Below are positions 55,915-58,782 of a stretch of DNA of 58,782 bases, in pieces. Both the position numbers and the translations under genes were made by a program. Below the pieces are notes generated by a model. It worked only from the letters and a program-made list of their open reading frames with translations. It did no database searches and was not told the origin of the DNA. Positions within the stretch are counted from its first letter, which is position 1. The number at the start of each line of letters is the position of its first letter. The stretch comes from a virus: the IMG/VR virus record IMGVR_UViG_3300028388_004043, positions 1 to 58,782 of that record; one strand, 5' to 3'.

Positions 55915-56195
55915 TGTTGACGTTCAACCAGTTCATCATAGAAGCCAAGAACACTCACATGGAACACATCGAAGATCTGATCTTCAACGAGGGCGTTTCT
56001 GGTACACGTAAAGCAATCAATTTTCTACGTGACCTCAGAGACATGCTTGCGGGTAATTCCAAATCATCAATCTCAAGAACTGTGAAATGGGATGGCGCAC
56101 CTGCAGTCTTTGTTGGTGTTGATCCAAGCGATGGTAAGTTCTTTGTCGCGAAGAAAGGTATCTTCAAAATGGAGTATATTCATGAGTCTTCCTAA
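55914..56195 (+). CDS. truncated KxDG-motif protein with capsid-targeting-like N-terminus
   Basis: 93 residues. MLTFNQFIIEAKNTHMEHIE carries an I-I-E/A site like the T4 prohead protease site. Then a helical part (RKAINFLRDLRDMLAGN) and TVKWDGAPAVFVGVDPSDGK with FFVAKKGIF. K-W-D-G is the KxDG nucleotidyl-transferase motif of ligases and capping enzymes. Related phage proteins known to me run to several hundred residues past this point; here the frame ends 14 codons after FFVAK, in the ribosome site of gp26. It looks like a cut-down remnant still under translation. Confidence 0.65.
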   Translation: MLTFNQFIIEAKNTHMEHIEDLIFNEGVSGTRKAINFLRDLRDMLAGNSKSSISRTVKWDGAPAVFVGVDPSDGKFFVAKKGIFKMEYIHESS

Positions 56196-56892
56196 AATTG
56201 CAACGCCTACCTTCGAACTTGTACAACCTTCAACTGGCAACAAGTTAACTTACAGACCTTTTCTTGTTAAAGAGGAAAAGATTCTGTTGATTGCAAAGGA
56301 ATCGGATGAAAAAAGAGACGTGTTCAACGCCATCAAACAGGTCATCAACAACTGCGTTCTCACAGAAGAATTCAACGTCAATGATATACCTATCTTTGAT
56401 ATGGAATATATTTTTCTCAAACTCAGAGCTGTGTCGGTCAATAACATAGTGAATTTTGTGGTTGAAGATAGCGATGATGAGATTGAATACAAACTTGAAC
56501 TTGACTTGAATGATGTTGAGGTGATTTTCCCAGAAAATCATGAGAAAAAAATTGAGATCGATGAAGAGATGGGTATGATGTTGAAATATCCGACGCCAGA
56601 TATCTCAGACAGAATTGCAAATCTGAAGACCATTGCGGAAATCACATACGAGACTATTCAGTCATGTGTTGATTACGTCTATGACTCAGAAGAAGTGTAC
56701 CCATGGGAACAGTCCTCGAAGAAAGAAAAAGAAGAGTTCATGGACTCACTGCCTGTTGAAATGTACGAAAAGATTCAGAAGTTCTTTGAAACTGCGCCAC
56801 GTATCGAACATGTTGTGAAGTACGTGAACAGTAATGGTGATGAGAAGCGTGTGGTGTTCAGAGATCTTGATGATTTTTTTACATTGTACTGA
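56182..56892 (+). CDS. 26: baseplate hub assembly protein, T4 gp26-like
   Basis: 236 residues from ATG 56182 (MSLPKIATPTFELVQPSTGN), with GGAG 11 bases upstream; the frame is open further upstream but that part runs through the previous gene. Family core: TYRPFLVKEEKILLIAKES, then KQVINNCVLTEEFNVNDIPI and FDMEYIFLKLRAVSVNNIV. T4 gp26 (208 residues) acts in hub assembly and is followed by gp51. The last codons are GAT-GAT-TTT-TTT, a slippery run just before the stop. Followed by gp51 and a tape measure, like tail assembly chaperone genes in other phages. Confidence 0.88.
   Translation: MSLPKIATPTFELVQPSTGNKLTYRPFLVKEEKILLIAKESDEKRDVFNAIKQVINNCVLTEEFNVNDIPIFDMEYIFLKLRAVSVNNIVNFVVEDSDDEIEYKLELDLNDVEVIFPENHEKKIEIDEEMGMMLKYPTPDISDRIANLKTIAEITYETIQSCVDYVYDSEEVYPWEQSSKKEKEEFMDSLPVEMYEKIQKFFETAPRIEHVVKYVNSNGDEKRVVFRDLDDFFTLY
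56874..56880 (+). promoter_or_regulatory. putative -1 ribosomal frameshift site (seven T)
   Basis: A run T-TTT-TTT is in phase with gp26 (zero-frame codons TTT 56875-56877 and TTT 56878-56880). A slip of -1 continues as TAC-ATT-GTA-CTG-AGC, directly into the gp51 frame, four codons before the gp26 stop. It fits the X-XXY-YYZ rule. Confidence 0.7.
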
Positions 56893-57056
56893 GCCACAAC
56901 TCATTGTTCAACTACTACAAGCTGAACTTTGATGTGACTCAGTACCATAAATTCTCACTGACCGAAATTGAGAACATGTTGCCTTTCGAGCGTGAGTTGT
57001 ATGTTGAAATGATAACGGACAAGATTAAGAAGGAATCGAACAGTGACCAACTATAG
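56880..57056 (+). CDS. 51: gp51-like hub assembly region, reached by -1 frameshift from gp26
   Basis: 58 codons in the -1 frame after gp26: YIVLSHNSLFNYYKLNFDVT, QYHKFSLTEIENMLPFEREL, then YVEMITDKIKKESNSDQL. The SLTEIENMLPFERELYV block is the signature of small gp51-like proteins that follow gp26 in marine T4-like phages. There is no ATG or GTG before this block, only CTG at 56889 and TTG at 56904, and no ribosome site. The simplest reading is a gp26-gp51 fusion of about 291 residues made by -1 slippage. Confidence 0.75.
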   Translation, partial: YIVLSHNSLFNYYKLNFDVTQYHKFSLTEIENMLPFERELYVEMITDKIKKESNSDQL

Positions 57057-57071
57057 CAGAGGAATGTTCTA

Positions 57072-58782
57072 GTGGCATCAAGTTTAATCAAAATGAGCAG
57101 GAAATTATCTGCCAAAAAAGCCAAAAAAATGTCATCTAAGAGAGGGTTTAAAAAATCTCTTGCTGGTGGTGTTGTTGGTAGTTTAGCTGTCGATGCTATA
57201 GGCTCCATGTTAAATGATGAGCAAAAAAATGTTCAAGATGCCGCCATCAAAAAACAACAACTCATACCTACTCGTGTTCAACCTGTAAAACAGATTACTC
57301 CCACCCTCATTTCGCCAGAAGTTAAAGTTGAGCCTGTCAAGATAGAGGTAAAAGAACTTCCATCAATCACTATAACGTCTGAATCAAATTATCTACCATC
57401 TGTTGTACGCAGTGATGATAAAAGTGTTGACCAAGATGTTTTGTCAAAAATCAAAAACCTTGAGATTCGTGTAAGCAAAAATGAAAAACGATTAGATCTA
57501 GTTGCTCTGTGGATTCAAGATACCAACAAAAAGATTGAAGAGATTCAGCGAAGAACTCTTGAGGTTAATTTCGCACTTAGTGCTGTAAATTCAGTGGCCG
57601 CAAAAGCCAGAGATGATTTTCGTCGTCAGAATCTAAAGAACGAAAGACAGAAAGACGAAGATGACATAGAGAACAAAAAATACACCAACGACATCTTCAG
57701 TAGAATGGAAGAAGGTGTCGCCGAAATTATTGGTAGCGGTAAAGCTATTCTCAAATCACTAGCAACTCCTTTAGCCATGATTGGCGCTGGAGCTATGATG
57801 AGTGATTCGTCTGAAAATGAAGGTGGAATTGTTGAATCTGCATTTGACGTCATTGACGAGGTTGAAACATCTGCGATTGGTGGTGTTGTTGCTGTTGCTG
57901 CTAAAACTCTTGCGAATAGAGGCATTAACAAATTGAGTATGATTCAAGACCTGAGAGAATTTCAACCAACTCGTGGTGTTGTTCAAGGCGTGGAAAAATA
58001 TCAGAGAGGGAAACGAGCAACAGAACAAGCGAAGAAGTTTGCTGATCTACGTCAGACAATGGGCATTGTTGATCAGGCAGACATAACAAAAACATCCACA
58101 GCCGCATCAGGTATTATGCAGACCGTAAATAAAATTGCAGACAAATCAAAAGTAGCAAAGAAGGCTCTTCAATATCTGAGTAAGGCAAGATCTTATGTAT
58201 CTGACACTGCAAAGATGGCGAAGAAGTTGACTAAAAAAGCTCAAGAAGCCATAAACAATTTACCATCTGGATTGAAGAAACTAGCAAAGAAAGGTCTCAG
58301 AGGAATTGTAAAATGGACCATCATTTTTGAGATTTTAGATTTTCTATGGAGATCAACTGAGAAATACATGTTAGGTTCCATCGATGAAAAAGAATGGCAT
58401 GAAGGGAACAAAGAACAGATAAACCGTCTTCTCAAATTGTTTGGTGCGCCATGGGCATTGGCAATGATTTTTGGTGTAGCAGGCACAGCAATACCTGTGC
58501 TTGGAAACATTGCTGGTGGTGTAGCGGGGTTAATCGTCGGCATTCTCTTTGCTGATACCATATACGATGCTCTTAGGTTTGAAACTCTTGTCAATGCTTT
58601 TTATGACTTTATTTTCCGAGGCGACCTATCTGGGTTTAAGAACATCGCAAATAAGGCAGTCAATTTTGTTGTTCGACAGGTGCCAAAGTTTATTGCTCAG
58701 GGAGCGATGAGTGCCGTCAGAGGTGTTGGCAGATTCTTAGGCATTGTTGACGATGAAGAGGACAAGTATGTCAATGAAAATT
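57072..58782 (+). CDS. tape-measure-type hub protein, T4 gp29-like (partial)
   Basis: At least 570 codons, running off the window. GTG start at 57072 with AGAGGA (57058-57063) upstream; an in-frame ATG follows at 57093. N-terminal basic region, a Pro/Val-rich stretch (about 65-115), a long coiled coil (about 124-207: NLEIRVSKNEKRLDLVALWI), amphipathic helices, then a hydrophobic stretch at about 459-506 (AMIFGVAGTAIPVLGNIAGG and VAGLIVGILFADTIYDA), typical of tape measures, which set tail length and later may cross the membrane. It directly follows gp26/gp51, as tape measures follow their chaperones. Confidence 0.75.
   Translation, partial: MASSLIKMSRKLSAKKAKKMSSKRGFKKSLAGGVVGSLAVDAIGSMLNDEQKNVQDAAIKKQQLIPTRVQPVKQITPTLISPEVKVEPVKIEVKELPSITITSESNYLPSVVRSDDKSVDQDVLSKIKNLEIRVSKNEKRLDLVALWIQDTNKKIEEIQRRTLEVNFALSAVNSVAAKARDDFRRQNLKNERQKDEDDIENKKYTNDIFSRMEEGVAEIIGSGKAILKSLATPLAMIGAGAMMSDSSENEGGIVESAFDVIDEVETSAIGGVVAVAAKTLANRGINKLSMIQDLREFQPTRGVVQGVEKYQRGKRATEQAKKFADLRQTMGIVDQADITKTSTAASGIMQTVNKIADKSKVAKKALQYLSKARSYVSDTAKMAKKLTKKAQEAINNLPSGLKKLAKKGLRGIVKWTIIFEILDFLWRSTEKYMLGSIDEKEWHEGNKEQINRLLKLFGAPWALAMIFGVAGTAIPVLGNIAGGVAGLIVGILFADTIYDALRFETLVNAFYDFIFRGDLSGFKNIANKAVNFVVRQVPKFIAQGAMSAVRGVGRFLGIVDDEEDKYVNEN

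Follow-up and report, generated by a model that had tools for sequence, protein, structure and literature searches.

A gp26-gp51 junction in a T4-like virus where a conserved slippery heptamer and an RNA stem-loop very probably direct -1 frameshifting to a longer tail assembly chaperone

In the window, by which we mean the whole analysed stretch of 58,782 nucleotides from a marine T4-like virus (part of a record of 59,990 bases), gp26 and the gp51-type frame that follows it are, as we judge with high confidence from sequence analysis, one gene with two protein products, the second made by a -1 ribosomal slip at U_UUU_UUU with the help of a stem-loop. Very probably the ribosome slips back one base now and then at the end of gp26, which would provide a little of a longer chaperone for tail building. 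The heptamer and the open -1 frame at the end of gp26 are confirmed observations; we infer that slippage occurs in this phage, as well as its efficiency and the chaperone function. The mechanism is already known for T4-like viruses, and the window is a well-supported further case of it. The part likeliest to be new is the paired RNA stimulators, which may be undescribed.

The short form of the tail assembly chaperone (TAC-N, 236 aa) is encoded by gp26 at 56182..56892 on the plus strand, with a Shine-Dalgarno-like GGAG (56171..56174, plus strand) 7 nt before its ATG at 56182. The protein matches PHROG 150 (E 2e-61) and the Pfam family PF12322 (T4_baseplate, the T4 gp26 family; E 4e-54), where its 184 bits pass the curated cut-off of 24.5. 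The gene ends GAT-GAT-TTT-TTT-ACA-TTG-TAC-TGA, the TGA stop being 56890-56892, and the heptamer T_TTT_TTT occupies 56874..56880 of the plus strand in phase with gp26. This run was originally predicted to be a perfect -1 slippery heptamer, and indeed it sits in X_XXY_YYZ phase. The further expectations of an open -1 frame of 58 codons and of a fusion of about 291 residues are also borne out: the frame runs from 56880 to the TAG at 57054-57056, and 233 + 58 residues give 291 aa.

To judge how far this arrangement is kept, we used two sets of relatives. The first comprised 80 contigs fetched with gp26 alone, 19 loci from named phages and the window; one contig ends before the gp26 stop and was left out, so that 99 intact junctions remain, window included. 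An in-phase TTTTTTT (54 junctions) or TTTTTTC (43) is present in 97 of the 99, with the gp51 frame at -1, and between 0 and 8 codons separate it from the stop of gp26. Such an alignment of relatives had been put forward as a check by the original prediction, and the slippery run is thus kept in phase in nearly all of them. Counted over all phases, the gp26 bodies of the 97 relatives (67,864 bases) contain just 24 TTTTTT seeds, of which 8 are in phase; an in-phase TTTTTTY in each of the 97 is therefore beyond chance. The second set consisted of 80 contigs fetched with the gp51 domain alone, a few of which also belong to the first. All 80 have TTTTTT with T, C or A as the next base: 72 carry TTTTTTT or TTTTTTC and eight carry TTTTTTA. 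In these eight the 0-frame Phe is replaced by Leu, so that gp26 reads Phe-Leu, and the slip is still possible.

The codon choice around the heptamer is equally telling. Among the 84 non-redundant junctions with the heptamer, the codon before it may encode D, S, N, A or G, yet it always ends in T (log10 P -15), and the first Phe, in the P site, is always TTT against a background of 62% (log10 P -17.5), the quoted probabilities counting related phages as independent and hence overstating the significance. Selection on the protein alone would not be expected to give this pattern of wobble T and TTT. Together with the TTTTTTA contigs, in which the slip is kept, it indicates that the site is conserved beyond protein-coding need.

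Two of the 99 intact relatives, Vibrio phage D503 and Salmonella phage SeSz-1 (Ackermannviridae), do not have the heptamer. In both (L095, 3100-3200, and L098, 3190-3260, respectively) gp51 is still at -1 relative to gp26, and CTTTTC and ATTTTC stand in place of the heptamer, which suggests a different slip. Eight T are found at the slip site in L016, Melnitz-1 and HTVC008M (L016, L086 and L085), with the same frame relation.

Downstream of the heptamer the window can form a stem-loop whose 5' arm (56886..56898, plus strand, conserved 9-bp core 56888-56896) holds the gp26 stop and whose 3' arm is at 56935..56945 of the same strand (conserved core 56935-56943). The segment 56888-56942 has a minimum free energy of -19.3 kcal/mol (z -5.5); the 9-bp stem begins 7 nt after the heptamer and encloses a 38-nt loop. 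Across 37 non-redundant sequences of the TTTTTTT type, 90.1% of cells are paired and double changes occur at 6 of the 9 pairs, so that both arms are supported by covariation and by pairing in relatives. This pairing is reached by 0/500 shuffles and collapses once the partner is slid. When codons were redrawn with the amino acids kept, 54% were paired against the observed 90% (z 16). In our opinion this covarying stem, at a normal distance for a stimulator, is, on such comparative evidence, clearly selected as RNA.

Relatives with TTTTTTC have a different, compact hairpin of 11 bp which starts 5 nt after the heptamer (67% paired versus 51%, z 6.6), and they often carry GAGGG or GGAGG 9-10 nt upstream. 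In the upstream Glu-Gly motif of this group Glu is GAG in 26/29 cases against a background of 28% (P 5e-12). A similar Shine-Dalgarno-like stimulator was sought upstream of the heptamer in the window and none was found; such an element belongs to the TTTTTTC group. Each hairpin was also tried in the other heptamer group, where neither received support, the groups being set by heptamer type and not by a tree. We cautiously lean towards the view that the frameshift is tuned by RNA stimulators which T4-like lineages have exchanged at one homologous junction: in the group of the window a 9-bp hairpin with a long loop, its 5' arm including the gp26 stop, and in the cyanophage-type TTTTTTC group a compact hairpin with GAGGG upstream. 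If such an exchange is undescribed, these phages would offer a natural series of swapped stimulators that hold the chaperone ratio. In any case, the relatives are matched natural variants of the slippery site and its stimulators, which can be tested in E. coli reporters.

Long poly-T runs can give rise to transcriptional slippage, and one may ask whether RNA polymerase slips on this run, giving mRNAs with an extra U, in which case the fusion would arise at transcription. The seven T of the window, and the eight of L016, Melnitz-1 and HTVC008M, would suit such a process. However, many relatives have just six T, followed by C or A. Polymerase slippage also needs no codon phase, yet the run is fixed in phase, and a stem-loop at stimulator spacing follows it. 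Hence we consider this explanation very unlikely and prefer slippage by the ribosome.

The -1 extension itself (TAC-C, 56880..57056, plus strand; 58 codons and a TAG) translates from 56880 as YIVLSHNSLFNYYKLNFDVTQYHKFSLTEIENMLPFERELYVEMITDKIKKESNSDQL and matches PHROG 634 (E 8e-22), a gp51 domain with a further match to the C-terminal end of PHROG 150. The -1 frame is closed until about 2 codons before the slip, so the extension does not belong to a longer ORF of its own. Over 281 pairs pN/pS is 0.22 in the -1 frame versus 1.1 and 2.1 in the other two frames; judged by this substitution pattern, the extension is evolving as coding sequence under selection on its protein. Among relatives, conserved residues appear in it as early as the first codons past the slip. 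In the AlphaFold2 prediction (mean pLDDT 77) a helix starts at residue 2, and a fold search with the 58-aa extension returned no match.

Could gp51 instead be a small gene in its own right, with ribosomes either reinitiating beyond the gp26 stop or entering there at a weak internal start? Many databases do annotate a small gp51 CDS (in S-SM2, HTVC008M, phiM12, Cr30 and P-SSM2), and in many relatives an ATG, GTG or TTG occurs somewhere within the first 26 codons. The original prediction held that in the window no ATG or GTG start precedes the block SLTEIENMLPFERELYV. This stands for ATG, but a TTG at 56904 and one GTG at 56934 are present, both without a Shine-Dalgarno-like sequence. The broader claim that gp51 has no start of its own agrees with what is seen in relatives: a common start codon or ribosome site was sought across them and none was found, candidate starts differ in kind and in place, both ATG and GTG are absent from 21/84, and ATG or GTG with a Shine-Dalgarno-like sequence occurs in only 2/84. 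Moreover, residues ahead of any candidate start are conserved, and a separate gene would leave the slippery heptamer and the stem-loop unexplained. We therefore give this alternative marginally less credit still than polymerase slippage. As for a sequencing or assembly indel that splits one gene, the window is a single metagenomic contig and homopolymers are error-prone, but the same -1 arrangement recurs in many contigs that were assembled separately and in cultured phages with complete genomes, which refutes it as a general account and leaves it a negligible probability here.

If frameshifting operates as we propose, most ribosomes would read gp26 to its stop and make the 236 aa short chaperone. 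A minority would pause at the stem-loop 7 nt after U_UUU_UUU and slip back one base, the two Phe-tRNAs re-pairing on UUU, and would then continue in the gp51 frame to give the 291-aa long chaperone. Following the lambda gpG/gpGT model, binding of the tape measure protein may fall to the short form, and the scarce long copies may recruit tube subunits through their extra helical domain.

The next gene (57072..58782, plus strand, GTG start), which runs past the window, is by its position probably the tape measure gene. Ambiguous bases lie just past the window end at 58782, inside this ORF. In HTVC008M, phiM12 and Cr30, which all show the gene order gp26, gp51, small ORF, tape measure, the corresponding place is taken by genes with a tape measure annotation or similarity to tape measure. 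Unlike the window, L085, L086, L087, L088, L097 and L100 carry an additional small ORF, roughly 80-140 codons long, between gp51 and the tape measure gene. A tblastn search with the window's probable tape measure gene against 50,697 named phage records gave no match, and among the fetched relatives the gene was matched in L002, L003, L005 and L007 only. The earlier identification as tape measure is supported by position and by annotation of equivalent genes, but not by homology search in named phages.

With regard to the role of gp26, its predicted fold (mean pLDDT 88.7) places the HK97 tail assembly chaperone 2ob9 at the top of 350,542 PDB chains, a hit that is not significant (E 0.81, probability 0.38). 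The predicted viral structures that match the fold are gp26-type proteins and the hub assembly catalyst of Acinetobacter phage ZZ1. In a T4 review, gp26 and gp51 are listed as hub assembly chaperones (PMC3004832). The pattern of a chaperone pair, a short protein and a C-terminally extended form made by predicted frameshift, is present at the level of sequence. The proposal that gp26/gp51 are the counterpart of the lambda G/GT pair is supported, and it is in line with the tail assembly chaperones already identified in T4-like phages (Vladimirov et al. 2022, as related by citing papers).

In T4 itself, genes 26 and 51 are on opposite strands and gene 26 ends GAG TTC TTT GAG, without a slippery run. 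Given this and the two relatives without the heptamer, the exact signal is not universal among T4-like phages. The fused-protein profile aligns with residues 14-246 of the 249 aa T4 gp51 (hmmsearch; hhalign E 7e-12), and T4 gp51 also matches PF12322 over residues 1-201 and PHROG 150 over 3-248; T4 gp26 aligns with the N part of the fused profile only, ending at FF. T4 gp51 is accordingly a homologue of the predicted fusion along its full length, so in T4 the long form seems to have a gene of its own, and it looks as if the long chaperone is made there from that separate gene. The T4 genes are homologous to the locus in the window, T4 gp26 corresponding to the short form and T4 gp51 to the whole predicted fusion; the difference is that T4 has two opposite-strand genes, gene 26 without the heptamer, where the window has one locus.

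This is of some use for annotation, as gp51 is annotated separately or omitted in many marine T4-like phage genomes (e.g. S-CAM1, S13). The evidence indicates that gp51 forms the C-terminal part of an additional protein made from gp26. That would account for the report that cyanophage gp51 resembles only about 20% of T4 gp51 (PMC3037559).

The systems to which the window should be compared begin with the T4-like phages themselves. Vladimirov and colleagues are said to state in their abstract that frameshifting is conserved in several T4-like groups, T4 itself using genes 26 and 51. We know their study (Vladimirov, Gautam, Davidson 2022, Virology 566:9-15) through two papers that cite it. According to the PRFect paper it describes some T4-like phages with a short gene and a longer fused gene and no frameshifting (PMC10885494), and the phage Adele paper credits it with poly-T slippery signals in T4-like TAC-N genes (PMC12846349). 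As far as can be judged from these citations, the genes are the same as ours, with a short and a long form. The E. coli dnaX cassette has a slippery heptamer and a downstream stem-loop, like the window, and an upstream Shine-Dalgarno-like element, like the TTTTTTC relatives; it differs from the window, which lacks that element, in slipping about 50% of the time to give a shorter product. The lambda model is set out in a 2016 review, according to which G-T frameshifting is widespread except in T4 (PMC5009743). No sequence family link from gpG/gpGT to gp26 was found, and compared with lambda gpG the gp26 of the window is longer, belongs to its own Pfam family and has a poly-U heptamer. What lambda and its tailed-phage counterparts share with the predicted locus is the position directly before a tape measure gene (in the window a probable one) and a low-level -1 slip near the 3' end of the gene, which adds a C-terminal domain to the chaperone (PMC5009743).
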